Origin: Prochlorococcus marinus XMU1411
GTDB lineage: Bacteria; Cyanobacteriota; Cyanobacteriia; PCC-6307; Cyanobiaceae
Length of the DNA stretch: 64,000 bases
Direction: 5' to 3'
NCBI RefSeq assembly: GCF_017696075.1
Contig: NZ_JAAORI010000003.1
Coordinates: 310,001 to 374,000, forward strand
Positions within the stretch are counted from its first letter, which is position 1. Every line of letters begins with the position of its first letter. The translations under genes were made by a program, and so were the position numbers. Positions 4,072 to 22,651 of this stretch are shown piece after piece. Under the pieces are notes generated by a model. The model had not been told where the DNA came from and ran no database searches. It was given only the letters and a program-made list of their open reading frames with translations.

Positions 4072-5433
4072 TTAACCAACAGTGGACATCATACTGAACA
4101 TAGGTAAATACATAGCAATTAATATGATTCCTACAAAAACAGCTACAAAAATTATCATTAAAGGTTCCATTATTGAAGTTAAGCTTTTGACGCTTGAGGA
4201 AACTTCATCTTCATAAAAATCAGCTAGTTTTGTAATCATTTCACTTAGCTCCCCTGTCTCTTCTCCAATCCTAAACATAGAAGTGAACATTATCGGAATT
4301 ACAGACTCTTTATCAAAAGCTTTGTGCATGGGATTTCCCGATTGAATATCCCTATAGGCATTTTCTATAATTCGACTAAAAATTTTATTTTTTAAAGTTT
4401 TTTTGGCTATTGTTAATGACTCTAAAATCGGAACTCCAGCACTATTAAGAGAAGATAATGTCCTTGAAAAATTGGCTAAACAAGATTTTGTAACCAAATC
4501 TTTTGTAATTGGCAATTGAAGTAATGTTTTGTCGTACCACCAAATGAAAGATGATCTACTTGATAAATATTTAGAAAATAAATAAATTGCTATGCCAGAT
4601 GGAATTGCCTTAAAGTAAAATTGTAGAGATCTAAGCTGTTCAGATAAGTCAATCAATAATTGAGTTATTCCAGGCAATGGGGCTCCAGATTGATCATAAA
4701 TATCAACGAAAATTGGAATAACAAATATCATCATTATAAAAACTATTACTACCGTAAGAATTGCTATTGCAGAAGGATAAGCCAAAGCACTCTTGATTTG
4801 ACCTTTAATTTTTGCAAGACTTTCTAGTAATTTCGCTTGTCTATCTAACGTAGTAGGGAGCAGTCCTGCAGTTTCACCTGCGTTGACAAGTGCTCTATAC
4901 ATTTCATTAAATACTTCTGGATATTTATCAAGCATTTCAGACATAGTAGAACCTTTACTAATGCCTAAAGCTATTTCTCTAAAAGAGTATTGAATCGTTG
5001 GGTTTTCCGCTGTATCTGAAATGATATTAAGAGAATCTAATAAAGGCAGTCCAGTTCTTATCATGGAGGATAATTGCTTTGTGGCTACCGCCAAGTCTTT
5101 AATTGGAGGGCTTTTTAATCTTCTTTTCTCCATTGATTTAGGTCTTATTAACTTCCTTCCTTCTCTTAGAGAAGTCATTTCACCCTCTAAAAATTCTTTT
5201 CTTTCTTGAATTTTTAATTCAACATAAGTTTTTAAAAAAGATAATTTACTTTTTTGTTTTTTTCTTAGATTTTTTTTCTTCGAAGGAATTGGGATGACGT
5301 TTTTATATTTTTGAGTTATTTTTGCATTTTTATGCTCAGGAATTCTATTAGGATTGTCTAGTACTTTTCTCTTGTGACGGGCTTTTTGCATGAGCCTTCT
5401 TAGTCTGGCATTTTCAATAAATTTATAATCCAT
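4072..5433 (-). CDS. pilC: T4P inner-membrane platform protein
   Basis: PilC is the polytopic platform on which the motor ATPases act. The 453-residue protein has two tandem T2SSF domains, beginning near residues 115 (LAVATKQLSSMIRTGLPLLDSL) and 325 (ANFSRTLSSLNSAGVPILESL). Each has the characteristic GE-T-G segment (NAGETAGLLP, RIGEETGELSEM), and membrane helices lie near 220, 275 and the C-terminus. The first 100 residues are unusually rich in Lys and Arg. It is third in the minus-strand pilB-pilT-pilC cluster, 36 bases after pilT, so cotranscription is likely. Confidence 0.93.
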   Translation of the reverse strand: MDYKFIENARLRRLMQKARHKRKVLDNPNRIPEHKNAKITQKYKNVIPIPSKKKNLRKKQKSKLSFLKTYVELKIQERKEFLEGEMTSLREGRKLIRPKSMEKRRLKSPPIKDLAVATKQLSSMIRTGLPLLDSLNIISDTAENPTIQYSFREIALGISKGSTMSEMLDKYPEVFNEMYRALVNAGETAGLLPTTLDRQAKLLESLAKIKGQIKSALAYPSAIAILTVVIVFIMMIFVIPIFVDIYDQSGAPLPGITQLLIDLSEQLRSLQFYFKAIPSGIAIYLFSKYLSSRSSFIWWYDKTLLQLPITKDLVTKSCLANFSRTLSSLNSAGVPILESLTIAKKTLKNKIFSRIIENAYRDIQSGNPMHKAFDKESVIPIMFTSMFRIGEETGELSEMITKLADFYEDEVSSSVKSLTSIMEPLMIIFVAVFVGIILIAMYLPMFSMMSTVG

Positions 5434-5469
5434 TATTTTAGAAACTTTATAGAATTAAACTCATGATAT

Positions 5470-6543
5470 TTAATTTGGTTTTTCAGGATTCATCTCATCC
5501 AAAATGCCTTTCAAAACATTAGGTCTATTGCATTTGTAGTAAGCCTCGTCTGTTGTAATAATGCTTTGGGATACAAGTTGAGAAAGAGATTGCTCCAATG
5601 TTTGCATTCCAAATTTGCCTCCAATTTGAAGTTGGGAATAAACTTGTGAAGCTTTGGCTTCTCTAATTAAATTAGCGATTGCATTATTGTTTACTAATAT
5701 TTCTGCAGCCAAAGATCTTTTATTATCAATTGTTTTGCAAAGGGTTTGTGAAATAACACCTATCAATGATGAGGAAAGTTGGACTCTAATTTGCATTTGT
5801 TGAGAAGTTGGGAAAACATCAATAATCCTGTCAATGGTTTGAGATGCAGAAGCTGTGTGTAAAGTCCCTAAGACAAGGTGTCCTGTTTCTGCAGCGGTAA
5901 TAGCTAAACTTATAGTCTCTAGATCTCTCATTTCACCTACCAAAATAATATCTGGATCTTCTCTTAATGCAGATCTTAAGGCGTTAGAAAAAGATTTTGT
6001 ATCTTCCCCAACTTCTCTTTGTCTTACAAGACAATTTTTATTACTATAGATAAACTCTATTGGATCCTCAATTGTAAGAATATGGTGAGCAAAATTCGAA
6101 TTAATCCAATCAATTCCACTGGCAAGAGTCGTAGTCTTTCCTGATCCTGTAGGTCCAGTTACAAGCATCAAACCTCTTGGCCTACTTAAAAGTTGTTGAA
6201 CACTGTCAGGAAGACCTATTTGGGAAAAATTTGGAATCTCAGTGTTTAAAGCTCTCATAACACAAGAGATCTTCCCTCTATCTAAAAAAATATTCATTCT
6301 AAATCTTGCGATTCCTTCTAATCCATAACTACAATCTAATTCTTTTTCTTCTTTAAATATTTGAATTTTTGAGGGACCGAGAATTTCTTCAAGGTCAAGA
6401 TATAAATCTTTGGTTGAGTATTCTTCGCTCGATGCGGGCAATATTTGACCTTGAACTCTAAAAAATGGGACACTATCTCCTGTTAGGTGTAAGTCGGAAC
6501 CGTTCCGTTTTACTAACTCGGTCATAAGGTTTTTTAATTTCAT
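5470..6543 (-). CDS. pilT: T4P retraction ATPase
   Basis: PilT is the cytoplasmic hexameric ATPase that drives pilus retraction. The 357-residue protein has Walker A GPTGSGKT at 130-137, an Asp-box-like EDPIEF, the Walker B region DPDIILVGEMRD near 195 and the His-box GTLHTAS near 225. Family length is normal. The ATG overlaps the pilB stop by four bases (ATGA), so translation is coupled to pilB. Its presence implies dynamic, retractable pili rather than a pure secretion pseudopilus. Confidence 0.93.
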   Translation of the reverse strand: MKLKNLMTELVKRNGSDLHLTGDSVPFFRVQGQILPASSEEYSTKDLYLDLEEILGPSKIQIFKEEKELDCSYGLEGIARFRMNIFLDRGKISCVMRALNTEIPNFSQIGLPDSVQQLLSRPRGLMLVTGPTGSGKTTTLASGIDWINSNFAHHILTIEDPIEFIYSNKNCLVRQREVGEDTKSFSNALRSALREDPDIILVGEMRDLETISLAITAAETGHLVLGTLHTASASQTIDRIIDVFPTSQQMQIRVQLSSSLIGVISQTLCKTIDNKRSLAAEILVNNNAIANLIREAKASQVYSQLQIGGKFGMQTLEQSLSQLVSQSIITTDEAYYKCNRPNVLKGILDEMNPEKPN

Positions 6544-8279
6544 TGACTTTTATTGGGTGAATCATTTAATAAACAAACACGTTCTACTTCTTCAATTGTG
6601 GTAAGTTCATTTTTTATCAAATCCATCCCATATGAAAGCAAGCTTCTTCCTTTACTTTTGAATGCAATTTCTCTGATTTCCTCAGCATTAGATTGTTTCA
6701 TGATTAACTCCCTAATTACATCATTTACTTGCATAACTTCATAAATGCCAACTCTCCCTTTGTATCCAGTTCCGTTACAGGTGGGACATTCTATGTTGTT
6801 TTTTCTTAAAAATCTTGCTTTTTTAACTCCCATGCTAGCAGCTAGTTGATTCTCTGAAGGATTTATTAGCTTAAATTCACTGCATGATTTGCATACTTTT
6901 CTTACTAATCTTTGCGCAACCAATCCGATTATTGAAGCTCCAATCAAATATGGAGGTATTTCCATCTCGGCAAGTCTTGTTATTGCAGTCGAGGTATCAT
7001 TTGCGTGTAATGTGGTAAATACCATATGACCAGTAAGAGCAGCCTCCATGGCTGCTTGAGCTGTTTCTTTATCTCTTGTTTCTCCAACCAAAATAATATC
7101 AGGGTCTTGTCTCATCAATGATCTAAGTGCTCTTGAAAAATCGAGACCTTTCTCTCTTATAACTTGAACCTGGTGTATTCCATCTAGTGTATATTCAACT
7201 GGATCTTCAACGGTACTTATATTAACTCCCGGTTTATTAAGTTCACTTAACATGGAGTACAAGGTAGTTGACTTTCCTGATCCAGTAGGGCCTACTATGA
7301 TAACTATTCCATAAGGAGATTTGGACATATTTTGTATTAATTTCAGCTCACTTTTTTCAGTTATTAATTTAGATAGATTTAAAACAGAATTATCACTCTC
7401 TAGAGCTCGAAGGACAACTTTTTCTCCCCATCTCCCAGGTAATGTACTAACTCTGAAATCAGATTTTCTACCTCTTAAAAGACACCTAATCCTTCCGTCC
7501 TGAGGTAATCTTTTCTCTGAAATATCTAATTTACTCATGATTTTTATCCTGCTTATTATTGGACTCACATGAGACTTTGGAAAAGCAAATGCCTCAACCA
7601 AGACTCCATCAATTCTATATCTTATTCGTAATCTGTCTTCTAAAGGCTCTACATGAATATCAGATCCCTTTAATGTAAAACACTTGCTTAAAATGGACGC
7701 AACACCAGAAATTACTGGATCTCTTGAAGATGTTAATTCTTCTCCAAAAAGAATATCATTTTCTATTTCAGAATCTTCTCCAATTCTAGCTTGAGCTAAT
7801 TTGATTAAAGCCTCATCATTTTCATCATCAACTAATTCATTACTTTCTTCCTCAAGAGAATCATCAAAATCAGAAGGTTGATCATTTTCTATATATTTAG
7901 CATCTTCATATTGTTCTGAAATTTTATTTTTTGTCTCAATAGTTTCAATAAAATCATTTTTTGCTTCATAGCTATCTTTAGTCGTTTTTCTTTGAATACT
8001 TTCAACAGACACTGAATGGGTGTTTTCAAACCAAGTTTCCCACTCAAGAGATGTTATTTGTTTTAAACTCACCTTAAGGTTAAATTCACTTTCTATAGTA
8101 TTGATAACTTCCTTTACTTTGGCGTATGCCAAATTCATGGCTCCTAGCATTAATGTATCTTCTTCAATTTCAATAATAATTATTCCAGCATCTTCGCATA
8201 ATTCAGGAGTGAGAAAATCACTGATGTCCCTATTATCTAAAATCCCATCTTTATTTTTGATTTCGCTGAAAGCAGACAT
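6540..8279 (-). CDS. pilB: T4P extension ATPase (GspE/PilB family)
   Basis: PilB powers pilin extraction and filament growth. The 579-residue protein has an N-terminal MshEN/GspE-N-like region, an acidic linker (about residues 130-170), then the N2 domain and the ATPase core. Walker A is at 330-337 (GPTGSGKS), followed by EDPVEY, DPDIILVGETRD and TTLHANDT. A C-terminal zinc-binding tetracysteine (CKSC near 466, CPTC near 500) distinguishes it from PilT. It heads the minus-strand unit and is divergent from the pilP-like gene across 86 AT-rich bases that must hold both promoters. Confidence 0.94.
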   Translation of the reverse strand: MSAFSEIKNKDGILDNRDISDFLTPELCEDAGIIIIEIEEDTLMLGAMNLAYAKVKEVINTIESEFNLKVSLKQITSLEWETWFENTHSVSVESIQRKTTKDSYEAKNDFIETIETKNKISEQYEDAKYIENDQPSDFDDSLEEESNELVDDENDEALIKLAQARIGEDSEIENDILFGEELTSSRDPVISGVASILSKCFTLKGSDIHVEPLEDRLRIRYRIDGVLVEAFAFPKSHVSPIISRIKIMSKLDISEKRLPQDGRIRCLLRGRKSDFRVSTLPGRWGEKVVLRALESDNSVLNLSKLITEKSELKLIQNMSKSPYGIVIIVGPTGSGKSTTLYSMLSELNKPGVNISTVEDPVEYTLDGIHQVQVIREKGLDFSRALRSLMRQDPDIILVGETRDKETAQAAMEAALTGHMVFTTLHANDTSTAITRLAEMEIPPYLIGASIIGLVAQRLVRKVCKSCSEFKLINPSENQLAASMGVKKARFLRKNNIECPTCNGTGYKGRVGIYEVMQVNDVIRELIMKQSNAEEIREIAFKSKGRSLLSYGMDLIKNELTTIEEVERVCLLNDSPNKSQ

Positions 8280-8365
8280 TTAAAAAAGAAAATTTTGGAT
8301 AAGAAAACTTTTAAAAAAGTTGTTAAATACTTTATCTTGAAATATAGCTATAATTTTAATTAAAC

Positions 8366-8890
8366 TTGTATAAAATGCATTATTTTTCAAAAGTCTTTGC
8401 AAGATTCATGAAAAATTATAATCATTTACCCTATTTAATTTGGTACGTGTCACTTACTTTAGCAAGTATTTTTTTTGTAACCGAGCTTAATAGTGAAGAA
8501 CAAAAAAATAATTCATTAGTGATTGAAGATGGTTCTAATACAAGTAAAATTATGAATGATATCTTAAGGCCAATGCCAATTGGGGATTTCAAATCTGCAT
8601 CACAAAGAGTAAATATAAATAGAAATCCTTTTCAAGATCCTGCAAAGTCTGAATTGACAAATATTGATGATATTTACTCTGCTTTGGTATTTAAAGGTAT
8701 AGCTAGATCAGGGGGCACATTAGTTGCAATTATAGAAACAGATGATGTTCAAAAAATTTACGAAGTTGGCGATTTAATGGATAATGGATTTACTATCGAT
8801 TCGATTTCTTATGAAGAAACCTCAGTTGAAGTTAGTAATGGGTCCAGAAAATATAAATTAATTTTATCAGGTCTTAAATATGAAAATTGA
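8366..8890 (+). CDS. pilP: PilP-like T4P assembly protein
   Basis: The 174-residue protein has one N-terminal membrane helix (about residues 20-40), a linker, then the NRNPF motif near residue 83 that is characteristic of PilP/GspC proteins. A small beta-rich HR-type domain follows (LVFKGIARSGG..., with EVGDLMDNGFTI). PilP links the PilNO inner-membrane complex to the PilQ secretin. Start is uncertain: TTG at 8366, with in-frame ATGs at codons 4 and 15. The last 11 bases overlap the next gene. Unusually it precedes rather than follows pilMNO. Confidence 0.75.
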   Translation: MYKMHYFSKVFARFMKNYNHLPYLIWYVSLTLASIFFVTELNSEEQKNNSLVIEDGSNTSKIMNDILRPMPIGDFKSASQRVNINRNPFQDPAKSELTNIDDIYSALVFKGIARSGGTLVAIIETDDVQKIYEVGDLMDNGFTIDSISYEETSVEVSNGSRKYKLILSGLKYEN

Positions 8891-10391
8891 TCCATTATTT
8901 TTAGAAAAATATATTAATGCAAAAAGAGTAGAGGTTTTTGACTATTTTACTTTGATTTCAAAAGTAAAATTTCTAAGAAATAAATTTAAAGAAAGCAAGA
9001 AGTCTTTTCCTTTAATAAAAAAAATTTCTAGAACTGAAAAATATAGAAAAATTATTGAAAGAATTAAAAATTTAAAGATAGATAGTGAATTAAATGACAA
9101 ATCAAAAAAAAGTAAAGATTCAGCTTCTTTAATCAAAGAAATTATGAGTTCTAGTAGCTACAAGAATATAATTTCTCAGATCAATCAATTTAAAAATAAA
9201 AAAGTTAAACAAAAAAAATTAAAAAAAAATAATAAAATACTTTCTTTAAAAAAGAAGGTTGTGAATAATGGTAATTTTGAAAACTTAATTTCTAAGATCA
9301 ATAAATATAGATCAATATTTAGAAGTTCTTTAAAATTGCAAAAAAATGACTTTATCAAATATTTGGTTTCTAATTATAAATTAAATACCCAATTTTTTAG
9401 AGAATTAAAAAAATATCAATTCTTTAATAAAGATTATTTAGTAAAGCAAAACAATAATAAAAAGTTTGATCAAAAAATTGGAGTTGTTTTTTATTCTGAT
9501 CATAATCTTATTTTTATAAGCTTAAATATTAATTTAAATAATAGAATTAAAATCAATGGAGTAACAGAAATACCAATACCAGGAAATGTCATTGGAGATT
9601 CTTTAGTAGAAGATAGTAATGAATTAGCTAATATTGCGCTCGATTCAATTAATCTATTAGATTTAAATTCCGCACCTCTTCTGGTGGTATTATCAAGTTC
9701 TTTTTTTAATATCCATACATTCAAAGCTTCCGATTTAAAGCAGATTTCACAATCAGATAGAAAAGTTCAGTCAAAAAGTCCTTACTTGCCAGATAATACA
9801 CTTGTGGATTTTTTCAGGATGTCAGATGCTCAAATCTCAAATGGTTTTGTTAGAACAACTTACTCTAAAAAAGACTTTATTAAAGGTTGGACTGACACTT
9901 TAGAAATGATCGATCTTCCAGTAATTGGTCTGGTTCCAGCAGCGCCTTTGATTTTCGATGCCATAACAAAAATAACTTTAGAAGAAAAAACTGTTTTAAT
10001 TGATATTGAATCAACGGTTACGACATTATTAATAGGGGGCGCATTATCAGAATTGAATTCTTATAAGCTTCCTTTTGGCTCAAGCTTATACATATCAAAT
10101 AATCTTAAAAATTCAGGGAAAAATTATTTTGAAAGGGTTTCAAATTCAATTGAAGTTATAATGAAAGATAATAATGAGAAGCCACCTTTAAGTATATTCG
10201 TTATGGGCTCTGGATTAGATAATCTTATTAATTCTGAATTCGACATACCTAAAGGGTTTAAGAATATTGCAGAACTAAAATTATCTGATTTTTCTTATTC
10301 TCCAAAAACTATGCAAATACATGAAACAATATCAAATTCAATAGATTCAAGAATTTTTTCGCTTGCATCAATTTTGACATTATGCGTATAA
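8880..10391 (+). CDS. pilM: PilM-like actin-fold protein with long Lys-rich N-terminal extension
   Basis: The 503-residue protein is placed by position and by actin/FtsA-like ATPase motifs in its C-terminal half: VLIDIESTVTTLLIGG near 375 (phosphate-2-type loop), LPFGSSLY, and the adenosine-type FVMGSGLDNL. PilM is the cytoplasmic ring protein that binds the PilN N-terminus. The first 190 residues are extremely rich in Lys, Asn and Ile and look like a separate coiled or disordered extension absent from textbook PilM (about 350 residues). It overlaps the genes on both sides (11 and 10 bases). Confidence 0.7.
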   Translation: MKIDPLFLEKYINAKRVEVFDYFTLISKVKFLRNKFKESKKSFPLIKKISRTEKYRKIIERIKNLKIDSELNDKSKKSKDSASLIKEIMSSSSYKNIISQINQFKNKKVKQKKLKKNNKILSLKKKVVNNGNFENLISKINKYRSIFRSSLKLQKNDFIKYLVSNYKLNTQFFRELKKYQFFNKDYLVKQNNNKKFDQKIGVVFYSDHNLIFISLNINLNNRIKINGVTEIPIPGNVIGDSLVEDSNELANIALDSINLLDLNSAPLLVVLSSSFFNIHTFKASDLKQISQSDRKVQSKSPYLPDNTLVDFFRMSDAQISNGFVRTTYSKKDFIKGWTDTLEMIDLPVIGLVPAAPLIFDAITKITLEEKTVLIDIESTVTTLLIGGALSELNSYKLPFGSSLYISNNLKNSGKNYFERVSNSIEVIMKDNNEKPPLSIFVMGSGLDNLINSEFDIPKGFKNIAELKLSDFSYSPKTMQIHETISNSIDSRIFSLASILTLCV

Positions 10392-11107
10392 ATTATAATT
10401 TTGCTTTTCAAAACTCAAAATTAACCCCTTGGGAGAGGCCATCCCCCCCTAATCTGTTGATTTCAGATGCAAGTCTGAAGAAAAAAATTAGCTACATAAT
10501 TGATCAGACTAAATTAAATAAGGAATTAATTTATCCCTCTATTTTTATTTTATTATCTAGTTTAGGGATGCAATTTTTAACTTTCTTTCCTAACAGAAAT
10601 ATCAAAAACTTAGAAAGTGATCACTTTGAGTACCAAGTTATTTCTCAGAAATTGTCTGATTTAGAATCCTCAAAAGCAAGATTTAGAAGAAAACTTAGAA
10701 ATATTGATAAATATTTTACACAAGCCACAACATCATATATGTTTGCATTTTATTTACAAAACTCTGTACCCAAAGGTGTTCAACTTAATAGCTATTCATT
10801 TAGTGATAATGGTTTTGATATTATTGCAACCGCATTCAATCTTGATGCACTTAATGAATTTATAACTTTAATAGTTGAATCACCAGTAATACTTAAAGAG
10901 TCTGTAAGTATAAATCAAGTTAATAGAAAAGATTTTGCTAAATCAAATAATTCTGATCCCGTTCCTGATTTTGAGATGGAAATTTATGGAGCTATAAAAA
11001 AATTAGAAATAGCAAAAAGAAAAGATTTGTATATAGAATCTAAAGCAAATGGTTTACTTCAAAAATTAAAAAGATTTAACAATCTAAAATTTAAACTAGG
11101 ATCTTAA
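10382..11107 (+). CDS. pilN: PilN-like inner-membrane protein
   Basis: The 241-residue bitopic protein has a roughly 55-residue cytoplasmic N-terminus, one membrane helix (YPSIFILLSSLGMQFLTFF, about 56-75), a periplasmic coiled coil and a ferredoxin-like domain (VPKGVQLNSYSF...). This is the PilN architecture. The order after PilM and before a PilO-like gene supports the call; sequence similarity alone would be weak. PilN pairs with PilO and its N-terminal tail docks in PilM. Confidence 0.72.
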   Translation: MRINYNFAFQNSKLTPWERPSPPNLLISDASLKKKISYIIDQTKLNKELIYPSIFILLSSLGMQFLTFFPNRNIKNLESDHFEYQVISQKLSDLESSKARFRRKLRNIDKYFTQATTSYMFAFYLQNSVPKGVQLNSYSFSDNGFDIIATAFNLDALNEFITLIVESPVILKESVSINQVNRKDFAKSNNSDPVPDFEMEIYGAIKKLEIAKRKDLYIESKANGLLQKLKRFNNLKFKLGS

Positions 11108-11112
11108 GGAAA

Positions 11113-11970
11113 TTGGCACAAAAAAACGATAATAATTTCTTCCAAAAACTTAAAGATATTGATCTTAATGAGATTTTTGGCAGTCTTAACGATTTTAAAA
11201 TAGAGGATCTTAAAAATATCAATTACAAAAGATTGTTTTATGATATTCGCAAATCTAAGCACACCAAACCAATACTAGGCATTACTTTTGCTGGATTGTT
11301 ATCCGTGCTTGTTTTAATACCCAAATTTGAATTATTAGTTTCAACACGTAAGAAGTTAAAGCAGTTTAGAAAAGAATCACAAAACTTGCCTTTTAAGCTT
11401 TCGCAATTAAAGGAGGCGAAGAAAGAATTTAAAGAAGTTGAAAAAATAATGACAGATGTTAATAATTCTTTTTTAAGAAATAATCAATTAGTTTTTATTA
11501 CCCAACTATTAAATGAAGTAGCTTTAAAATCAAATGTAAGACTCAATTCTTTTTCGCCAATACTAAAGCCTGATTCCTCGAAATTATGTAAAAAGTCAAC
11601 AATTCAAAAGCAATCAAAAGAATTCAAATCTAAACAAAAGAAACAAAATTCATCTCAGAAAGGTTCAACTTTAGATAATTTTTATGAGGTCAGTTTTAGT
11701 TCTGATTATTTAGATATCCTAAAGTTCCTTAATTTAGTTCAAGAATATGACGTAACTGTTATTCCTTATTGTTTAGAAGTTGAATCTGAATTAAACATTA
11801 CAACACAAATTTCAAAAAAAGATACTAAAAATGAATCCTTAATTATTCCATTGGACGAACTTGGTAGACCTATTAATAGCTCTTATGAAATTGATGAAAT
11901 AAAGGAAAATTCTAAATTAGGAAAAGTAATTACGAGGATTATTTTTAAGATCCCTTCTTATACCAGATAA
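11113..11970 (+). CDS. pilO: PilO-like inner-membrane protein
   Basis: The 285-residue protein has a 55-residue N-terminal tail, one helix (PILGITFAGLLSVLVLI, about 53-69), a coiled coil (about 75-115) and a C-terminal domain interrupted by a Lys/Ser/Gln-rich insert. Domain order and position match PilO, the PilN partner. Start is TTG at 11113, six bases after the pilN stop and preceded by AAGGA. Confidence 0.7.
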   Translation: MAQKNDNNFFQKLKDIDLNEIFGSLNDFKIEDLKNINYKRLFYDIRKSKHTKPILGITFAGLLSVLVLIPKFELLVSTRKKLKQFRKESQNLPFKLSQLKEAKKEFKEVEKIMTDVNNSFLRNNQLVFITQLLNEVALKSNVRLNSFSPILKPDSSKLCKKSTIQKQSKEFKSKQKKQNSSQKGSTLDNFYEVSFSSDYLDILKFLNLVQEYDVTVIPYCLEVESELNITTQISKKDTKNESLIIPLDELGRPINSSYEIDEIKENSKLGKVITRIIFKIPSYTR

Positions 11971-12084: not shown

Positions 12085-13782
12085 TTGTATCCGCAAAGAA
12101 AGTCGATTCAAAGATCTATAGTTTTACTAGTATTTACATGTTTTTTTGGAGCGCCTAATATTGCTCAAGAATTGTTAAATACTAAATCTCAGAAGAAAAT
12201 TTTTTTAGATAATAGTAAATCTTTCTTATCAGAATTAAAAATTTCTAATAAAGATAATTTCTCAAGAAATCAACTTATTTCATCCTCCATAATAAATCCG
12301 AATCTTTTAGATATTGAAGGCCCGAAAGTTTCTTTAGTTTTCAAACAAGCTAAAGCAAAGGAAATTTTTGAGTATTTAGCAAAAATAGCAAATTATGGAT
12401 TCGTTTGGGTTAAAAATAATCCTAATGATGAATCTAAGTTCGATAATGATCGTTTAATATCTATGACTTTGAATGATGAGACTTACAAAAAGGCATTTAA
12501 CTCCCTGCTTCTGGCCAGTGGGTTACAAGCAAAATTACATGATAATGTCTTATATGTTGGACCTAATGTCAGGAACACTGTATTTACTCAAAGAGCTACA
12601 GATGTTTATCAATTAAATCAAATTAGCGCAAGTTCAGCCGCTGACTACTTAGCCAATCTTGGAGCTAGCGTTACTAAAACATTTACTATCACAACTTCAG
12701 TTACTTCTGGGACGTCTCAATCTCAAGCGGTACAAGGTTCTTCTGCTTCGTCAACTACCACAGATCAATCAGAAACTTCTGTAAAAGTATATGGAGCGAG
12801 TATTGGTCCATTGGTTGGACTTATTGCAACAACGGATGAAAGATTACAAACAGTCACCATGGTTGGTGAAGATCAATTAATAAATTTAGCGAAATCATTT
12901 TTGGGAAAATTAGATATCAGACAAAAACAAGTTGCTTTAAGCGTTAAAGTTTTGGACGTAAACTTGTCTGATAAGAATTCCTCAATGAAAGATTATGGGG
13001 GTACTTTGGATGATGCATTTATTATTGGTACACAAGGAAAAATAAAATCTGCATTTGGTGCATATTTGCCTACATTCCCAGATGCAGGCGGTTCGCTTAA
13101 TTCTAATCCAGGTTCTACTATTCAAAACAAATCTTTTTTTGGATTACTTGAGGCAAGTATAGAAAATGGATCAACCAAAGTATTAGCAAGTCCTACTTTA
13201 TTACTGAGTGAGTCTAAACTAACTGATGCGGGAAATGATAAAGGTATTGGAAGAAAAATTGGTAGCGAAGGATTTGTAGTTATTGGAGATAAGGTTCCAG
13301 TAGATGCTACGCAGGGAGAAGGAGGAGCATGTTCCTATAGTTACGATACTGTTGGAGTGAGTTTAGGAGCAAAGATTTTGGGAATCGATGAAAATAATTA
13401 CGTTACTTTCACAATGACTCCTATTGTTACTGGAATATCAGGAAGCTTTAATGTGGTTGGATGTGGATTGGTATCTAAAATAAATAATAGAAGGCTTGAT
13501 ACAGGTGCAATTCGTATAAAAGATGGAGAGACTCTAGTACTTACTGGAATAATCCAAGAGACTGATGTAGATACAACTTACAAATATCCAATACTTGGCG
13601 ATATTCCTTTATTAGGAGCTTTGTTTAGATCAAAACAAACTAATAATGATCAAAGAGAATTAATTATTTTAGTCACTCCAAAAGTCTTAGATGACGATAC
13701 CACTATTAATAACAAAAAATATGATCTTGAATTTATTAGTGAAGATGCAAATAACTTATATAATAATTTAAATTCTAAATAA
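12085..13782 (+). CDS. pilQ: T4P secretin (outer-membrane channel)
   Basis: PilQ forms the outer-membrane gate through which the pilus passes. The 565-residue protein has a signal peptide, an STN/N0-like domain (about 70-150, KAKEIFEYLAKIANYGFVW), an N1-type domain split by a Ser/Thr-rich insert (about 205-235), and a C-terminal secretin core with VLTGIIQETD...PILGDIPLLGALF and LIILVTPKV. It is shorter than proteobacterial PilQ and lacks AMIN domains. Start is TTG at 12085; an upstream stop rules out a much longer start. It ends the pilP-M-N-O-Q run. Confidence 0.92.
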   Translation: MYPQRKSIQRSIVLLVFTCFFGAPNIAQELLNTKSQKKIFLDNSKSFLSELKISNKDNFSRNQLISSSIINPNLLDIEGPKVSLVFKQAKAKEIFEYLAKIANYGFVWVKNNPNDESKFDNDRLISMTLNDETYKKAFNSLLLASGLQAKLHDNVLYVGPNVRNTVFTQRATDVYQLNQISASSAADYLANLGASVTKTFTITTSVTSGTSQSQAVQGSSASSTTTDQSETSVKVYGASIGPLVGLIATTDERLQTVTMVGEDQLINLAKSFLGKLDIRQKQVALSVKVLDVNLSDKNSSMKDYGGTLDDAFIIGTQGKIKSAFGAYLPTFPDAGGSLNSNPGSTIQNKSFFGLLEASIENGSTKVLASPTLLLSESKLTDAGNDKGIGRKIGSEGFVVIGDKVPVDATQGEGGACSYSYDTVGVSLGAKILGIDENNYVTFTMTPIVTGISGSFNVVGCGLVSKINNRRLDTGAIRIKDGETLVLTGIIQETDVDTTYKYPILGDIPLLGALFRSKQTNNDQRELIILVTPKVLDDDTTINNKKYDLEFISEDANNLYNNLNSK

Positions 13783-13816: not shown

Positions 13817-15307
13817 TTATTTGATATGAACGCAATAAGATTCTGCTCCCTTTGATAGTGAACCTAACCATTGGTTATTGAAAATATTTTTTGAATCTTC
13901 GCAGTAGTTGTTATAAAGAGATATGCTGTCGATTAATAAAGCTCCAGTAGCAGATTTACTTCTAGTGAACTGATTATATTCACTTACTATATCAGCGAAA
14001 TCTCCTTCAGATGATCCAGCACAAGGTTGTCCAGAAGATGCAGAAACTATATTTGGCTTCCATGCGCTTAAAATTATCAACTGACCGACATATTCAGATT
14101 CTAAAATTCTGCAAATGTCATCCCAAGGATCTATTGCAGTTTCTCTTTCTGCTCTTAAATTATTTAAAAAGTTCAATGCATTAACTTTATTTGTAGAAGA
14201 AAGTTCTTGAGGTCCATTTTCAAACAAATAATTTGAAGAACTATTATTTGAAATAATTTGAACATACATTTTATTACCATCGGACAGATTATTTGATGAT
14301 GGTAATTGATTTATATGTTGTTTTAAGCTGCTTATCATATATTCAAACAAATTCTTACCATTTATTCTTGGAGATAATACTTCAGGTTCACTAATTGGCT
14401 GCCAATTACCATTTATTATTTCACCGTTGAAGTGAAGGTAATCTTCATGCATAAAAAAAGAATTATCTATTAAATAGGTAATTCTATTAGATCTTAAACA
14501 AACGCCAAGCCAACAGCACTTTCCCCCAAAACATAATGGGGAATTATCAAAGTTATTTAAATTTAACTGAGAAATATTAATTTGACTTTGATCTTGTATC
14601 GAACTGAATCCACCTATTGAAGCTATAGATCTTAGTTGATTATTATTTATTCCTTCTTGAGGATCGCCAGCCTCAATTTGTATTTCGATTGCTTTTTTAA
14701 ATTCATCTACACAAAATGAAATCCCTTTTATTGTTTTTAATGAATCCCATCCATCAGGACAATTGATTTTTTTATAATTTGTCGATGAAGTAATTCCATC
14801 GAGTAATATTGTTTCCTGAAATTTTATAAAGGAAGGTGATATATAATATCCTAATTCATTGTATTGGGGGCCATATCTTATTAGTGTATATGGCGATTTT
14901 TCGTTATTTTGACTTGGTCTAAGAGAATAAACAATTGGACATTCAACTTGATTTAAAGTAAGTTGATCACCCTTTGGCATATAGTCGCTTTTAGCAAGAG
15001 CTTGATTTGGTATGCTTATTCCAAAAAGGAATTCTCCTTCATCGGGCATTTTGCAGTTGTTATTGAATAGAGTAATATCCGCTTCGTTATCAATTATTCT
15101 TTTACTTGATTTCACTTCATCTAAAATAAAATCCAAAGTATCACTTATTCTTCCATTGATTCCCATTTGAGTTTCATCAATTTTATTTCCCCTGAGAGCA
15201 ATTTGTAATATTGAAAATCCAATACTTATTGCAGTTATTGACATAGCCCCTGCAATTATCAGTTCAATTATTGTAAAGCCATTTTTTTTATGTATTTTAT
15301 TATTCAT
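13817..15307 (-). CDS. PilW-like prepilin with C-terminal vWA-like domain (modular pilin)
   Basis: A 10-residue leader ends in Gly and is followed by FTIIELIIAG (Glu at +5), the class III prepilin signature. The protein runs to 496 residues instead of about 200. After the pilin domain comes a Cys-rich loop (CFGGKCCWLGVC, 259-270), then from about 277 a von Willebrand A-like fold: YLIDNSFFM (the DxSxS position reads D281-N-S283-F-F), KMYVQIISNN, T390/D393 and GQLIILSAWKPN (409-419). vWA-bearing modular pilins act as tip adhesins in other bacteria. The metal site looks degenerate (second Ser replaced by Phe). It is last in the minor-pilin operon. Confidence 0.75.
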   Translation of the reverse strand: MNNKIHKKNGFTIIELIIAGAMSITAISIGFSILQIALRGNKIDETQMGINGRISDTLDFILDEVKSSKRIIDNEADITLFNNNCKMPDEGEFLFGISIPNQALAKSDYMPKGDQLTLNQVECPIVYSLRPSQNNEKSPYTLIRYGPQYNELGYYISPSFIKFQETILLDGITSSTNYKKINCPDGWDSLKTIKGISFCVDEFKKAIEIQIEAGDPQEGINNNQLRSIASIGGFSSIQDQSQINISQLNLNNFDNSPLCFGGKCCWLGVCLRSNRITYLIDNSFFMHEDYLHFNGEIINGNWQPISEPEVLSPRINGKNLFEYMISSLKQHINQLPSSNNLSDGNKMYVQIISNNSSSNYLFENGPQELSSTNKVNALNFLNNLRAERETAIDPWDDICRILESEYVGQLIILSAWKPNIVSASSGQPCAGSSEGDFADIVSEYNQFTRSKSATGALLIDSISLYNNYCEDSKNIFNNQWLGSLSKGAESYCVHIK

Positions 15308-15312: not shown

Positions 15313-15921
15313 TTAAGATGCTTCACACTTATTGGGAGTTAAAATATTATTTTGATCTATTTGACTTACTGGCATTTGACCTGAAATCCACTCTTTATCT
15401 ATGAATTTCCCTTTAACAATATGACCTGTTGGCGATTTTATGACGAGGCAGTTTAGTAGTTTTGCCCCTGAATTAAAGTATCTTGAGCCTATTACAATAA
15501 CCACTGAACCATCTGAACTTATTCTTCCGTTTGGAGTAATGCGAAAGTCTAAATTTGTGACTTGAAAAATAGAATTATTGATGGCTGGGGCCAAGGAATT
15601 AATGGTTCTGGATTGTCCACTACAAGAAACATCATAACCATAATAGTTTTTATCATTAGGAACGCTATTATAAGAAATCGAATTTGTATTAACATTACAA
15701 ATAGAACCCCATCTTCTAGCATCTAATCTTACTACTCGGAAATATTCTCTTAGTTCTCTAGTATAAGAGTTTACTTGTTCTGTCCTAATCCAATTTAGAA
15801 AACTGGGTAACATTAAACCTGAAAAAATACTTATTATCCCTACTACAATTATAAGTTCAACTATAGTAAATCCAAAAGATTTACTTTTTAAAAGAGATTT
15901 CTTACTCAAAAGTGAGTTCAT
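15313..15921 (-). CDS. GspH/FimU-like minor prepilin
   Basis: With the ATG at 15921 the leader is 17 residues ending in Gly, followed by FTIVELIIVVGIISIFSG with Glu at +5. The remaining roughly 185 residues are a beta-rich pseudopilin domain of normal length with three cysteines. I prefer this ATG to GTG at 15939 because it falls one base after the stop of the preceding gene. GspH/FimU-type pilins form part of the priming tip complex. Stop to next ATG spacing is five bases, so this is one operon. Confidence 0.8.
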   Translation of the reverse strand: MNSLLSKKSLLKSKSFGFTIVELIIVVGIISIFSGLMLPSFLNWIRTEQVNSYTRELREYFRVVRLDARRWGSICNVNTNSISYNSVPNDKNYYGYDVSCSGQSRTINSLAPAINNSIFQVTNLDFRITPNGRISSDGSVVIVIGSRYFNSGAKLLNCLVIKSPTGHIVKGKFIDKEWISGQMPVSQIDQNNILTPNKCEAS

Positions 15922-15922
15922 T

Positions 15923-16498
15923 TTAAATAATTTGTTCACACCAGCTATGAGCTTCTGGAGTCAGGTCAATACTTAACCAATGTTTGTTATTTTCTCCCCA
16001 TTGCACTCTGTAATTTAATGTTGCTATGGAATTATTTAGTGATTCATTATTAATAGGTGCAGAGATATTCAATTCTCTTGTTATTAGAACCTTACCACCG
16101 CTAAATACTTTGCTTCTCTCTTTACCAGGTTGCCAGGATTGAATCATTTCGTTTTCTGAACTAGAGTCCAAAACCCAACTTGGTAGATTAATTATTTCCT
16201 CTGAAAAGTTACTACATGTTTGGTTTGATAATCTATATTCACCAGAGTTTTTATCGTAAGACATAGACCATAAATCTAATTTTAATCTCTCGATATCTCT
16301 TTCAATTTCTTTATTTATGGAACGAATGAGGTTAGAAGAATGAACTGTACCAAGACGTAAAGAGGAGAAATAAATTCCATATGTAATAACCCCTGCTAAA
16401 AGACTTATGCTAAGTATGGCGTCAACCATTCCAAAACCATTTTTTTTAAAACTTATATTTTGAGTAATTATTTGATTTAATTTCTTATTTATATTCAT
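15923..16498 (-). CDS. PilV/GspI-like minor prepilin with Asp at +5
   Basis: The ATG at 16498 overlaps the upstream stop as ATGA, which decides the start (an in-frame codon at 16522 is less likely). The 191-residue protein has a basic leader ending in Gly21 and then FGMVDAILSISLLAG. The usual Glu at +5 is Asp, a conservative change. The rest is a short pseudopilin domain. It sits between the large 711-residue protein and the GspH-like pilin, an arrangement that mirrors minor-pilin and pseudopilin operons. Confidence 0.75.
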   Translation of the reverse strand: MNINKKLNQIITQNISFKKNGFGMVDAILSISLLAGVITYGIYFSSLRLGTVHSSNLIRSINKEIERDIERLKLDLWSMSYDKNSGEYRLSNQTCSNFSEEIINLPSWVLDSSSENEMIQSWQPGKERSKVFSGGKVLITRELNISAPINNESLNNSIATLNYRVQWGENNKHWLSIDLTPEAHSWCEQII

Positions 16499-18630
16499 TG
16501 AAAATCTCGCAGAGTATCCCAAAGGATTATTGATTTACCTCTATAGTATTTAATTCCCCAATTAAATTCATTACCATGCCATTCTTTTATTTTTTCTTTA
16601 AAGCTTTCAGAAAATTCCCATGTTTTATCTCCAGTAGCATCAAAACATAAATTTTTTACCCATGCCGCACCTGTAAAGTTCCTAATTGTTTCTTTATTAA
16701 GAGATTGAACTTTAATATTGAAAGCTTCTAACCAAAGTTTAGCTAAATTGTAATCTGTTAAATTACTTCCTAAATTAATATCATTTTCATCATTTTTAGG
16801 ATTAAGGATTGCGAAATGACCTGGATAGGAATACATCATATTTTGATTATTTAAACGATTGATATTTATTGTTTGAAAGCTTCTTAAATGATAATTACCA
16901 GTAGAATTATCAAAAAGTAAAAACACGTTATTTGTCAATGAATTAAATTGTGTACCTAATGGTAAATCACTTACTCTTTCTCCAACTCCTATAACCTCAA
17001 TATTATTGAAAAGATTGCTTTCTCTTAAACCTCCATATGGTATGAGTCTTAGGTCAGAATTTAAAATAAGGTTTGTAATCTTGTCATCAACTGAATTACC
17101 AATTGTATTTTTAATATATCCGTAAGATCCTCTTGAAGTTATTACCATCCCGCTATTGATTCCCTCTTCTTCATTATTAATTTGAACCCAATTAGAGTTT
17201 GGCGTTACTGAAATAAAAGTAGTCTTTGGTCCATAAATAAAAGAACCAAATTTGCTTGTAGAATCATCACTTGTATTATCAATTAAAAAGCTATGTCCAG
17301 GTAAAAGATTATTATCTATTGGGTAACTAATATTTGCATATGTAATATTGTTTTTAAAAGCTACCCCACCATTGTTATCTTCACGATTGCAAACTAATTT
17401 GTTTATTTCAGATTGATTTTTTTGTTTAAAAAGTATAGTAAGGTTTTCTGGCTTACCAGTTCCGCAATCTCCAGTTCCATTTTTATGGCAGAAAATGCCT
17501 CCATTGCTTATATCAATATCCCCCATTATTTCAAGGATAACTTTTGATTCATCGGTAGTGGAGACTTCGAATTTCGAACCAGGACCTTTTGCGTAAAGTG
17601 AATATATACGATAAGTTTTTTGAGTTGAATTTTCTGCATCTAATTTGCAATTGGTATTAATATCTTCATAATTATTTTTTGTACAAATTAATGTTCCAAT
17701 ATCGATTACATTTTTCAATCTAGGTTGTTTGGGAAGACTCAAAGGTTGTATCCATATTCCCCCATTCCCAGGTTCAGGTAATATTGAATTTTCTCCTTTA
17801 GCTAATTCTTTTAAATTTTGACAGTCATTAATATTATCAAGATTCATCCTCCAAATTATCGAACCTTTTGCATTATAAAAAGGAAGTATATTTAGATTTC
17901 CAAGGAAAAGAGAATCTTTTTTATCTGAATTATTTTCTCCAATTCCAAAGAAACCGAATCCTGATTCTGGTATATCGCTATTTACTTGAATATTGACTCT
18001 TAGTTTATTTGAAGCAGATTCTTTAGTACTATCTATTGGGGATGATATACCTTCAATAAGAATTGAATTAATACCAGAATTTTCAGTGCCTATATATTTT
18101 GTAGAAATTAAGTTAAAAGATTGTTCAAATTCTTTTTCTAAATTTGCTGAAAAGTTTCCTATTATGTTTGACCCAATGAATAAATTCCTAACTAGTTGCT
18201 GTTCTTCCTCCCACGATGAATTTTCATTAGTTGTACAGAAAGGAGCTTTTTGCCTACCACTGCAGTTCTCTTCATCATTACACCAAGAATCATCAGTCCA
18301 ATATTCATTGGATGGATTCGATATATTTGTTAATTCACAATCAGTAGATTTATCTGAGCAATTATTTACAATCCAAAAATAATTAAATAATCTCCCTCGA
18401 GAATTGTCATTAAATAATGAACGTAATCTAGCGATCCCTGAATAAGAAGAAGCTTTTGCTAGAAGTTCTTGTCTATTTATTCTTGATCCAGTTAGGCTTA
18501 ATATTGATGCCGCCATTAAGCCACTTACACCTACTGCAATTCCAATTCCTATTATTAATATTTGAGGTAAAGCAAATCCTTGATTATTTTTTATGAAACT
18601 AATTTGAAAAAATTTTTTCCAATAAAACAT
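16495..18630 (-). CDS. Very large GspK/PilX-like minor pilin
   Basis: The 711-residue protein starts with a basic leader, Gly18, then FALPQILIIGIGIAVGVSGLM. This is a prepilin-type helix but with Gln at +5 in place of Glu. GspK and PilX-type tip pilins are the largest minor pilins and tolerate loss of Glu5 because they sit at the filament tip. The 650-residue ectodomain has about 12 cysteines, beta-rich segments and no family I recognise. It is the first gene of the operon that continues with the PilV-, GspH- and PilW-like genes, and follows 51 bases after the major-pilin-like gene. Confidence 0.7.
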   Translation of the reverse strand: MFYWKKFFQISFIKNNQGFALPQILIIGIGIAVGVSGLMAASILSLTGSRINRQELLAKASSYSGIARLRSLFNDNSRGRLFNYFWIVNNCSDKSTDCELTNISNPSNEYWTDDSWCNDEENCSGRQKAPFCTTNENSSWEEEQQLVRNLFIGSNIIGNFSANLEKEFEQSFNLISTKYIGTENSGINSILIEGISSPIDSTKESASNKLRVNIQVNSDIPESGFGFFGIGENNSDKKDSLFLGNLNILPFYNAKGSIIWRMNLDNINDCQNLKELAKGENSILPEPGNGGIWIQPLSLPKQPRLKNVIDIGTLICTKNNYEDINTNCKLDAENSTQKTYRIYSLYAKGPGSKFEVSTTDESKVILEIMGDIDISNGGIFCHKNGTGDCGTGKPENLTILFKQKNQSEINKLVCNREDNNGGVAFKNNITYANISYPIDNNLLPGHSFLIDNTSDDSTSKFGSFIYGPKTTFISVTPNSNWVQINNEEEGINSGMVITSRGSYGYIKNTIGNSVDDKITNLILNSDLRLIPYGGLRESNLFNNIEVIGVGERVSDLPLGTQFNSLTNNVFLLFDNSTGNYHLRSFQTININRLNNQNMMYSYPGHFAILNPKNDENDINLGSNLTDYNLAKLWLEAFNIKVQSLNKETIRNFTGAAWVKNLCFDATGDKTWEFSESFKEKIKEWHGNEFNWGIKYYRGKSIILWDTLRDFQ

Positions 18631-18681: not shown

Positions 18682-19317
18682 TTATTGTTGACACGGACGG
18701 TAGGTTCTAACCCCTTTACCATCAGCTTCTGTGGCTGCTTTTGCTGTGAATTCATAAACTTCAGAAAGAGCAACTTGCGGAGCATAACAACCTGTTACTG
18801 CACTTCCATTCGCAGCATATGCAGTCCCATTGGGATTCGCTAATACTTGAAACTCTTCGTTCCCATTAATAGTTGCTAACTGAAATGAAATAGCATAATG
18901 TCCAGATGACGAGACAAATGAAGTATCAGTATTAGCTAGTGCAACTGGAGTTGCATTTTTGCAAACTGGGCCACCAGTAGTAGCAGCATCTGAATGTCCG
19001 CATTTTTGAAATTTTGCGTATTCTGAAAGTTGCAGAGCAGTTGAAGGTAAACCTCCATATTCAGTTTGGTAGGCAGTAGCTGCTTTAATCAGTGCCGCAA
19101 CAATTCCAGTGGCCTCTTTTTGTTTAGCTTTATCAGCAGCAGTCATGAATTGTGGAATTGCTATCGATGATAAAATTCCAATCATCATAACGACAACAAT
19201 TAATTCAACTAATGTAAATCCATCTTCTGAATTCAATTGCTGAATAGAAGAAAGATTTTTAATTTTATTAATTCTTAGTTTTGGGCTAAATAAACTAGAC
19301 CTGAAAAATTTTCTCAT
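18682..19317 (-). CDS. pilA: Major-pilin-like protein (PilA-type)
   Basis: The leader is unusually long (33 residues from the ATG at 19317; a TTG at 19374 would make it 52) and ends DG before FTLVELIVVVMMIGILSSIA, with Glu at +5. The ectodomain of about 150 residues is Ala/Thr-rich with cysteines in FQKCGHS, PVCKN, GCYAPQ and a C-terminal RPCQQ, suggesting two disulfides. It is rich in GC and commonly used codons compared with its neighbours, as expected for an abundant filament subunit. Its core is shared by the repeat-tailed proteins at 21299 and 25341. A long AT-rich region upstream (19318-19482) may hold divergent promoters. Confidence 0.85.
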   Translation of the reverse strand: MRKFFRSSLFSPKLRINKIKNLSSIQQLNSEDGFTLVELIVVVMMIGILSSIAIPQFMTAADKAKQKEATGIVAALIKAATAYQTEYGGLPSTALQLSEYAKFQKCGHSDAATTGGPVCKNATPVALANTDTSFVSSSGHYAISFQLATINGNEEFQVLANPNGTAYAANGSAVTGCYAPQVALSEVYEFTAKAATEADGKGVRTYRPCQQ

Positions 19318-19482
19318 TTTTAGAAAAATTTTATACCTACTAGTAATTTTACTGTTTCTTTCAAAATGTGACAATAAAAAACCATTTTGTAATATTGAAA
19401 ATTATATCTAATGTTTAAATTTCTGTTTTTTTACAATTTCTATATATAAATAAAATAAATAAAGTAATTTATATTATCAATA

Positions 19483-20010
19483 ATGTTTTTGAAACAAAAA
19501 AAGATGATCATAAAAAAAATTAGAAAAAAACAGGAAAATGGCTTTTCAATAGCTAATCTTTCTGTTGCTTTAGCCATTATTGGGATTCTGGCAACAATGT
19601 TGGTGCCAAATTTTTCTTCCGCGCTTGAATTTTTAGAGGTTTTGGTAGCGGAAAAATATTTATTAAAAAGCGTTAGGGAATGCCAGTCAGATTTAATAAA
19701 AAACGAATTATCTCCTCAATATGATTTGCAAATTAATAATTCTGGAATAGGAATTTTTAAAAACAACAAATATATTTTTTCTTACACAGGTAATCAAGGT
19801 GCATGTATTAATGAAATGAATACAGAGGGAAACAGAATTAAAATAACAAAATCTAGTACTGGACAAAACTTAAATTACTCATTAATAATAAATGTAATTA
19901 CTGGGGAGAAAACTTATGAGGGTCAACTTCCAGTATGGCTTGATTGGTGGGAAGGAGCTTACTCACCAATTATTCCAGAAAATGATCCCTTATTAAATGA
20001 ATACCAATAA
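19483..20010 (+). CDS. Pilin-like protein with atypical cleavage region
   Basis: The 175-residue protein has a very basic leader ending ENG, then FSIANLSVALAIIGILATMLVP. The hydrophobic helix and the Gly-Phe junction are prepilin-like, but +5 is Asn. The ectodomain has only two cysteines and ends in an acidic Pro/Asn-rich tail. It is alone on the plus strand between the major pilin and a secreted protein. It could be a minor pilin or a pilus regulator. Confidence 0.6.
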   Translation: MFLKQKKMIIKKIRKKQENGFSIANLSVALAIIGILATMLVPNFSSALEFLEVLVAEKYLLKSVRECQSDLIKNELSPQYDLQINNSGIGIFKNNKYIFSYTGNQGACINEMNTEGNRIKITKSSTGQNLNYSLIINVITGEKTYEGQLPVWLDWWEGAYSPIIPENDPLLNEYQ

Positions 20011-20020: not shown

Positions 20021-21280
20021 TTACTCTAAATCATTCTCAATTCTAAAATGTAAATCTTCTGCAGCAAATTGCCAATAATGTTTGGTTGAAAATATTAATT
20101 TATCTATTTTTCTTAAATCAGCCTCTAGCCACTTAGGCCCTAAATGAGATAGTTGAAATTCCTCTTCAAATACTTTTTTGCCATTTCTATAAGCTTCTAT
20201 TTTTAATTCTTCTCCATTCGCCTTACCCCACCCTACAGTAAAATAACCCCCCACAAAATCGAAAGTTTTTCCTTTGAAAGCCTCTATAGTGACTGGATGC
20301 CCAGAACTGCTATATGCTATTCCATGGCCACTATTCAATATATTCACGTATCCTGGACCTCTTGCTGTTTTATTATTTATTGCCAAAAGATAATTCCATT
20401 TTAATCCCAAGTGTCCGTCAGGAATTTTCTCAAGATCTGAATATTGAATCCAATCAAAGTTTTCTATTTTCAATTTACCCGCAATTGGCAACTTATTTTC
20501 ACCTGCAACAATATTCATTAACTCGATTGGAGCATGATTGACATTAATGATTTTTTTTTGCATCCAATTTATTGATTTACTTTTGAAAATTAATTGCCAG
20601 TTTCCTTTGTAAACAGGAAATATAAATTCACTATTTTTCCCTAACTTAACATGTTCCTTTTTTTTATTTGGGCTTATCGCTTTAATAGTTAAATCACTAG
20701 GTAATTTTTGTTCCCTTCCCTTAATTTGTCCTTTGATAGTTAAATTTGGAGCTAAGCCTACCCAGTTTGGAGGCTCTTTTGCAATTAAACCTCCAGGGGA
20801 GCCAATCTTTCGCAAGAAAAATATTTTTTGAGTCTTGTTTCCTGTTGTTATTCGCCAATTTGGCGGTTCTAAAACTTTAAAAGTATATAGTTCATTATTT
20901 TTATTTATATGCCTATAGTTTGAACTTCCCAAGGCCATTTTGAAGTTTGTATATCCGTTTGCATTTGATTTTGCAATGACGCTTATTCCATCTGGTTTAA
21001 TTAATTCTGTTTCAACTCCCACCATAGATTTATCTCCTAAATCATATATTCCATTTCTATTCCTATCATGGAAAATATAAACAGATATATTTAGATTTCC
21101 TGGTTCGAGTCGATTAAAATTACTTTTCTCATATGGGTGAGCTTTGACAAAAATATTGATCGTAGATAAAGAAATGATAAAAAGCTTGGTAAAAAATTTC
21201 TTAAAAATTGAATTCTTAAAATCTAGACTTTTTATTTTTTTCAAGTATTTTGATCTCTCGATTACCATTTCATAAATCAT
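20021..21280 (-). CDS. Secreted SdrD-B-like / surface protein
   Basis: The 419-residue protein has a long basic N-terminal region and a hydrophobic segment (LFIISLSTINIFVKA, about 33-48), a likely signal peptide. An SdrD-B/Cna-B-like module follows with the calcium-loop pattern HDRNRNGIYDLGDKS (about 71-85). The C-terminal 120 residues (YVNILNSGHGIAY... FTVGWGKANGEELKIEAYRNG) resemble a beta-sandwich found in secreted, possibly sugar-binding proteins. The role is unknown. Position inside the pilin cluster suggests a surface or pilus-associated adhesive partner. Confidence 0.6.
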   Translation of the reverse strand: MIYEMVIERSKYLKKIKSLDFKNSIFKKFFTKLFIISLSTINIFVKAHPYEKSNFNRLEPGNLNISVYIFHDRNRNGIYDLGDKSMVGVETELIKPDGISVIAKSNANGYTNFKMALGSSNYRHINKNNELYTFKVLEPPNWRITTGNKTQKIFFLRKIGSPGGLIAKEPPNWVGLAPNLTIKGQIKGREQKLPSDLTIKAISPNKKKEHVKLGKNSEFIFPVYKGNWQLIFKSKSINWMQKKIINVNHAPIELMNIVAGENKLPIAGKLKIENFDWIQYSDLEKIPDGHLGLKWNYLLAINNKTARGPGYVNILNSGHGIAYSSSGHPVTIEAFKGKTFDFVGGYFTVGWGKANGEELKIEAYRNGKKVFEEEFQLSHLGPKWLEADLRKIDKLIFSTKHYWQFAAEDLHFRIENDLE

Positions 21281-21298: not shown

Positions 21299-22651
21299 TT
21301 ACCTAAACCAAGGAGGTATTAGAGATTCATCTTGATTTATTTCAAGTTTAGAGCTTTCGTTTGTTTCTTCTAAGTTCACTCTCTTATTGGAAGTATTAAA
21401 TTTTTCAACGGTTTTTGTGATAGTAAATTTTTGTTTGTTTTCACTAATACCTGAAAGTGATGGTTGTTCATTGATATCAGATATTTGGCTATTTCTACTG
21501 CCTGAGCCATTCCCATTTCCTGTTCCATTCCCTATTCCATTCCCTATTCCATTTCCTATTCCATTCCCTACTCCATTTCCTACTCCATTTCCTACTCCAT
21601 TTCCTACTCCATTTCCTACTCCATTCCCTATTCCATTCCCTATTCCATTTCCTATTCCATTCCCTACTCCATTTCCTACTCCATTCCCTATTCCATTCCC
21701 TACTCCATTTCCTATTCCATTTCCTACTCCATTTCCTACTCCATTTCCTACTCCATTTCCTACTCCATTCCCTACTCCATTTCCTACTCCATTCCCTACT
21801 CCATTCCCTACTCCATTCCCTACTCCATTCCCTACTCCATTTCCTACTCCATTCCCTACTCCATTTCCTATTCCATTTCCTATTCCATTCCCTACTCCAT
21901 TTCCTATTCCATTTCCTATTCCATTCCCTACTCCATTTCCTATTCCATTTCCTATTCCATTTCCTATTCCATTTCCTACTCCATTTCCTACTCCATTTCC
22001 TATTCCATTTCCTACTCCATTTCCTATTCCATTTCCTACTCCATTTCCTACCCCATTTCCTTGGGAGATAAGAGAACCGCAAGTTATATAATCCTTTTCT
22101 CCTTTATCATATCCTGAAAATTCTTTAACTAAACTCACGCCACTTGTGGGACTATAACAACCAATAACGGCATTCCCTTCATCTTTGTAATTTAAACCGT
22201 TTGGATTAGCTTTAACCAGAAACATTGAACCCTCTTCCCTAATATAGGATGAAGACATCTCAATTTTGTAATTACCAGAGGGCGAGAAAAAGCTTATATC
22301 ATTTTTTTCTACAGGAGTTGGTTTTATATTCTTGCAAGATAATCTTCCATTTATATCGACATCATTTGCATTACATTTTTTCAAATCTGAAAATTTAATT
22401 ATTTCGCCAAAGGATGAAGGTAAATAAGCATATAAGCCGTAATTTGATTTTGCTGCTTTGAGAATTGAATTTACAATTAAGGTAGCTTCTTTTTGTTTCG
22501 CTTTATTCTGTGACGAATTGAATATAGGGAATATTATCGATCCTGTTATGCCAAGAAGAGTAATAACAAATATGAATTCTACAAATGAAAACCCATTAAT
22601 TTTTGAGTTCTTATTTAATAAGTATTTATTATGTTTATTTGTATTTATCAA
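21299..22651 (-). CDS. PilA paralogue with long Gly-Asn repeat tail
   Basis: A 20-residue leader ends in Gly before [18 protein letters not shown] (Glu at +5). Residues 45-190 parallel the major pilin, including KQKEAT, four cysteines at equivalent places, FLVKANPNG and AVIGCYSP. Where the major pilin stops, this protein continues with CGSLISQ and about 46 four-residue units Gly-Asn-Gly-Val/Ile, then an 80-residue Ser/Thr/Glu-rich end. The tail would extend from the filament surface as a flexible or beta-solenoid-like stalk. Long antisense frames over the array are by-products of its 12-base period. Confidence 0.8.
21509..22062 (-). repeat. 12-bp tandem repeat array, about 46 copies
   Basis: The unit on the coding strand is GGAAATGGAGTA (Gly-Asn-Gly-Val), with ATA replacing GTA in many copies (Ile) and synonymous GGA/GGG changes. 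The unit is a multiple of three, so copy-number changes keep the frame. The array is nearly pure, which favours slippage, and all three frames on several strands stay open. Confidence 0.95.

Follow-up and report, generated by a model that had tools for sequence, protein, structure and literature searches.

What can a minor pilin contribute to its pilus when its C-terminal module appears to have lost an ancestral metal site? This question is raised by a gene at 13817-15307 (minus strand) of the window, the whole 64,000-nucleotide stretch of Prochlorococcus DNA analysed here. Marine picocyanobacterial pili are credited with slower sinking and grazer avoidance (PMC7994388), and the control of pilus function by minor pilins in cyanobacteria has been named as an open question (PMC12288463). 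The open reading frame runs from ATG to stop, with exactly the place, strand and length given in the initial annotation, and from its translation, homologs and synteny it is predicted to encode a 496-aa protein combining a minor pilin of the PilW/GspJ slot with a vWA-derived module. The vWA modular pilin is a known class, of which the window's clade is, judged by sequence comparison, a variant with a lost metal site (MIDAS). No description of a cyanobacterial vWA pilin turned up in a literature search that covered the main text of freely accessible papers.

The N-terminus of the 496-aa pilin reads HKKNG10^F11TIIE15L. This class III prepilin signal has its Glu at +5 and, together with the hydrophobic helix, spans residues 10-36 (15200-15280, minus strand). 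The match to the Pfam N_methyl model is weak (13.6 bits, under the 21.2 cutoff), and F11 and E15 are invariant in 17 aligned sequences. N_methyl was the only model found in the Pfam scan at E <= 1, with no match to the PilW, GspJ or T2SSJ models, so that of the 'PilW-like prepilin N-terminus' proposed earlier the prepilin signal holds and the PilW likeness is one of operon position only. The one named relative in the genome collection comes from Prochlorococcus sp. AG-459-D04 (72% identical), and relatives of the pilin are present in 21 of 200 genomes of the genus. A family-wide profile search returned matches in 86 of 400 genomes and 19 of 59 genera, part of which cover the pilin module alone; no relatives were found on the viral contigs searched. 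Those relatives that carry the C-terminal module form three sets, namely set A (the window's clade), set B (a second form from the same genera) and set S (a Synechococcus-type form of about 520-630 aa).

The vWA pilin gene is the terminal gene of a minor-pilin operon, where it adjoins and converges with the secretin gene pilQ (12085-13782, plus strand; Secretin 9e-28). Further pilus genes occupy 3254-11970 on mixed strands, including pilD (plus), pilC, pilT and pilB (minus), which were assigned by family matches, and pilP, pilM, pilN and pilO (plus), which were assigned by order and size only. On the minus strand, the vWA pilin gene is accompanied by putative genes for a FimU/GspH-like minor pilin (15313-15939; GFTIVE, N_methyl 21.0 bits, a weak GspH match and synteny), a PilV/GspI-like minor pilin (15923-16522; GFGMVD, a prepilin-like N-terminus and synteny, no family match), a 711-aa PilX/GspK-like large pilin (16495-18630; GFALPQ, lacking Glu at +5) that is conserved across almost every A and B locus read, and a PilA-like pilin (18682-19374; N_methyl 24.4 bits). 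The PilX-, PilV- and FimU-like partners take their names from gene position and signal sequence rather than from family models. A and B loci share much the same gene order: pilB, pilP, pilM, pilN, pilO and pilQ, then on the opposite strand the vWA pilin and the PilV-, PilX- and PilA-like genes, with the FimU-like gene adjoining the vWA pilin in A loci and lying beyond PilA in B loci. Because PilT of this type IVa cluster exceeds its family cutoff (457.6 against 319.1 bits), the pilus is probably retractable. PilQ was found in 33 of 200 genomes, about a dozen of which carry a third type of type IV pilus cluster in the genus (L106-L112), with PilQ 36-40% identical; no relative of the vWA pilin was detectable in the seven third-type loci read.

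When searched directly against Pfam and PDB, neither the window protein nor the degenerate clade to which it belongs gave a relevant match to vWA models or PDB sequences. The vWA-like domain reported in the initial annotation is nevertheless supported through canonical relatives. For the module (about residues 276-496; 13820-14482, minus strand), the degenerate profile (set A) matched a mixed canonical alignment at 99.9% (E 2.9e-32), compared with 2.1% or less for reversed and column-shuffled controls, and matched set B at 99.9% and set S at 96.5%. Among 24 canonical modules, Pfam matches were obtained to VWA_3 in 14, to VWA_2 in 13 and to VWA in 6. The bridge from the degenerate clade to vWA is considered sound because L049, a sister of this clade, passes the VWA_3 cutoff on its own (30.4 against 27). 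Moreover, the canonical profile retrieved a single protein from PDB at E <= 0.01, the Streptococcus sanguinis vWA pilin PilB, in two entries (7b7p, 5e-6; 7ba2, 1.8e-4, in which the metal-site Asp reads Ala in the alignment), in agreement with the comparison made earlier to this species. The match to PilB was 0.7% for the degenerate-clade profile alone and 97% for the whole-family profile. An AlphaFold model built from two sequences only (the window's and L030) reached a pLDDT of 30 over the full length and 39 over the module, and Foldseek with this poor module model gave no significant match. Linked in this way via intermediates, the C-terminal module is by profile evidence homologous to vWA, and a vWA fold would be expected for it through the same intermediates.

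A D-x-S somewhere in 496 aa is meaningless by itself, as it is expected by chance. The D281-N-S283 noted earlier at residues 281-283 is a real remnant since D281, S283 and M286 are invariant in 17 aligned sequences and relatives show the full DxSxS / T / D set in the same alignment columns. In the alignment with relatives, the first motif of the window's protein is D281-N-S283-F-F285-M286 (14450-14467, minus strand), and F285 indeed takes the place of the second MIDAS Ser. Describing the metal site as degenerate was correct but too mild: the former Thr loop at residues 388-395 (14123-14146, minus strand) reads RETAIDPW, canonically GGGTNPW, with no conserved Thr, and the former Asp loop (14060-14074, minus strand) reads I412-L-S-A415-W416, canonically ISDG, so that the MIDAS is incomplete at all three motifs. 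In PilB, the metal is directly liganded by Ser206, Ser208, Thr291 and Asp319, and a D319A change abolished Mg2+ and Mn2+ binding and impaired twitching, with structure and piliation unaffected (PMC8179133). Ala415 aligns with Asp319 and, by this alignment, is equivalent to the D319A change. The same loss extends through the window's clade (n = 19), in which Phe, Tyr, Asn, Leu, Val or Ala stands at the second Ser position, a conserved Thr is missing from a Thr loop of variable length, and all members have Ala or Ser in place of the metal Asp. Sequencing error is ruled out as the source because 19 sequences from many genomes share the lost state. DGSGSM, GGT and [ST]DG are kept in all 28 sequences of set S, and set B keeps DxSxS and DG, with Thr in most. 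As a separate observation, genome G144 has two intact-MIDAS pilin copies (L061 9835 and L062 8595) about 12 kb apart, one inside the operon and one outside.

In a maximum-likelihood tree from which the motif columns were left out, the degenerate label changes twice in total, once for the window's 19-sequence clade, which is united by a branch of modest support (89/72), and once for L054 and L055. Adjoining the degenerate clade, L048 keeps DxSxS and TDG and has no Thr; next out, L049 and L050 have an intact MIDAS. The loss is therefore compatible, on these sequences, with one event in the 19-sequence clade, whose sister is partly eroded and whose outgroups are intact. L054 and L055 represent a second, independent MIDAS loss of a different kind (IATNSSL) in a related pilin. 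A simple lineage-wise shift of lifestyle is not the favoured reading, as the same genera contain both intact and degenerate forms.

Beside the former metal site, directly after the first motif, the degenerate clade has gained a specific loop, H292-x-NG-x-IING-x-W302 (14402-14434, minus strand), which is also present in L048 and not in the intact sisters L049 and L050. H292, N294, G295, G300 and W302, together with D281, S283 and M286, are invariant in all 14 aligned members of the clade. In addition, the degenerate clade and L048-L050 all carry Cys399 (14111-14113, minus strand) beside the former Thr loop (22 of 22 sequences); this cysteine is missing from every B sequence, from L054/L055 and from the tabulated S sequences. 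B sequences have instead a Cys near position 440, which is absent from the degenerate clade and L048-L050. As a single event on one branch, this cysteine swap is suggestive rather than statistical evidence. A possible disulfide between Cys399 and Cys429 would join the former Thr and Asp loops. Across eight pairs, dN/dS was 0.06-0.18 for the module and 0.07-0.22 for the pilin part; with such values the module is under purifying selection and is not decaying. This selection is compatible with a structural role as well as with binding.

In GspI-J-K and PilV-W-X, the PilW-slot pilin lies at the tip. By analogy, the N-terminal pilin module may join the neighbouring PilX-, PilV- and FimU-like gene products in a complex at the tip, and the C-terminal module, derived from a vWA that depended on metal, would be displayed at the filament tip, as has been proposed for PilB. 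Its metal site may have been lost stepwise, in the presumed order of the cysteine swap, then the new conserved loop and the loss of Thr, then the loss of the second Ser and of Asp. The head now probably either holds on to a ligand without metal or serves as a structural cap. Because it is kept by purifying selection, retained ligand binding of a metal-independent kind seems the most likely role of the module, with contact made through the new loop rather than a metal ion. On balance, we find it rather likely that the gene encodes a pilus-tip binding head that works without a MIDAS metal, carried by a minor pilin in a retractable Prochlorococcus type IVa pilus.

Known systems share parts of this arrangement. 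In S. sanguinis PilB, a class III pilin module precedes a vWA module, an arrangement like that of the pilin and vWA-derived modules in the window's protein; the MIDAS of PilB is functional, binds Mg2+ and Mn2+ and is needed by PilB for adhesion and twitching (PMC8179133), whereas the window's clade lacks the MIDAS and is encoded in an operon with PilX/PilV/FimU-like partners and a diderm secretin. In PilY1/PilC of Pseudomonas aeruginosa, an N-terminal vWA is thought to be displayed at the type IV pilus tip via minor pilins (PMC8179133). The window's protein resembles PilY1 in its vWA-derived module and, by analogy, its presumed display at the tip; unlike it, PilY1 is not a pilin and has a C-terminal beta-propeller. 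A search for PilY1 in 61 genomes of the genus gave no match with a control that was silent as well, so that absence is not established. The gene order with PilX/PilV/FimU-like genes and the Glu at +5 recall PilW/GspJ minor pilins, from which the protein differs by matching neither model and by its additional module of about 220 residues. The vWA domains A1 and A3 of vWF bind ligands without reliance on a MIDAS metal, although, unlike the window's pilin, they belong to an animal plasma protein with no pilin module and an unrelated ligand.

The main rival, which we regard as unlikely while taking it seriously, is that the former vWA head has become a ligand-free structural cap or spacer that primes or stabilises the pilus tip. 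All metal ligands have been lost except one Ser (plus D281) while the operon and tip partners were retained, as a cap would allow, and purifying selection cannot separate binding from packing; however, the five invariant residues of the newly gained loop, which lies at the former ligand face, seem beyond the needs of a cap, and the third cluster type, with no detectable relative of the vWA pilin, argues that a vWA head is not generally needed in the genus. It is improbable that the module still binds metal through an altered site formed by D281, S283 and other residues: the invariance of these two residues in the degenerate clade would fit such a site, but a single Ser is left of the four direct ligands of PilB, the Asp is gone from every member, and D319A alone abolished binding in PilB (PMC8179133). 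The transformation of Synechococcus elongatus requires minor pilins including PilW (PMC12288463), yet a comparable function of the 496-aa pilin in DNA uptake is very improbable, as a search of 11 genomes, the window's included, detected ComEC in none, with a control that recovered ComEC from 10 of 14 known genomes. That the domain is a decaying remnant heading for loss, as stepwise erosion of the MIDAS motifs might suggest, is scarcely credible: dN/dS is 0.06-0.18, the ORFs are intact, and many residues stay invariant even among modules that share as little as 43% identity.

For the preferred reading of a metal-free binding head, chitin had been suggested earlier as one possible ligand. This suggestion is unsupported, as no GH18 chitinase was found in eight genomes, the window's included, though binding need not accompany digestion. 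A more specific version of the reading is offered tentatively, as possible rather than probable: a metal-free site would have replaced metal-dependent binding, with the disulfide stapling the old metal loops and the HxNGxIINGxW hairpin making the contacts, and metal-dependent and metal-independent tips would be interchangeable in Prochlorococcus as flexible islands. The whole pilus cluster of the window lies within a flexible island of about 22.7 kb (3110-25766), in place of which the relative G041 has about 230 bp. The island adjoins a tRNA-Ser(UGA) at 2781-2869, and the short replacement in G041 adjoins the same tRNA-Ser. A third-type pilus cluster occupies the same slot in G042, and the pilus cluster is elsewhere in the genome in G446 and G313. 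At the island ends, no repeat indicative of site-specific integration was found, just a 13-base chance-like match.

The occurrence of intact-site and lost-site vWA modules in alternative clusters of one genus provides natural pairs for comparison and names a candidate tip head. The vWA module family predicts which heads would depend on Mg2+ and which would be independent of it, and its evolutionary record makes a direct test possible. A pilin-like protein at 21299-22651 (minus strand) contains about 45 tandem GNG[VIT] units at about residues 198-377, with similar runs in L091 and L093. Within the island, between two pilin-like genes, an SdrD B-like domain protein is encoded at 20021-21280 on the minus strand (24.2 bits against a cutoff of 29.7), and a pilin-like ORF at 19483-20010 on the opposite (plus) strand has the signal GFSIAN, without Glu at +5.
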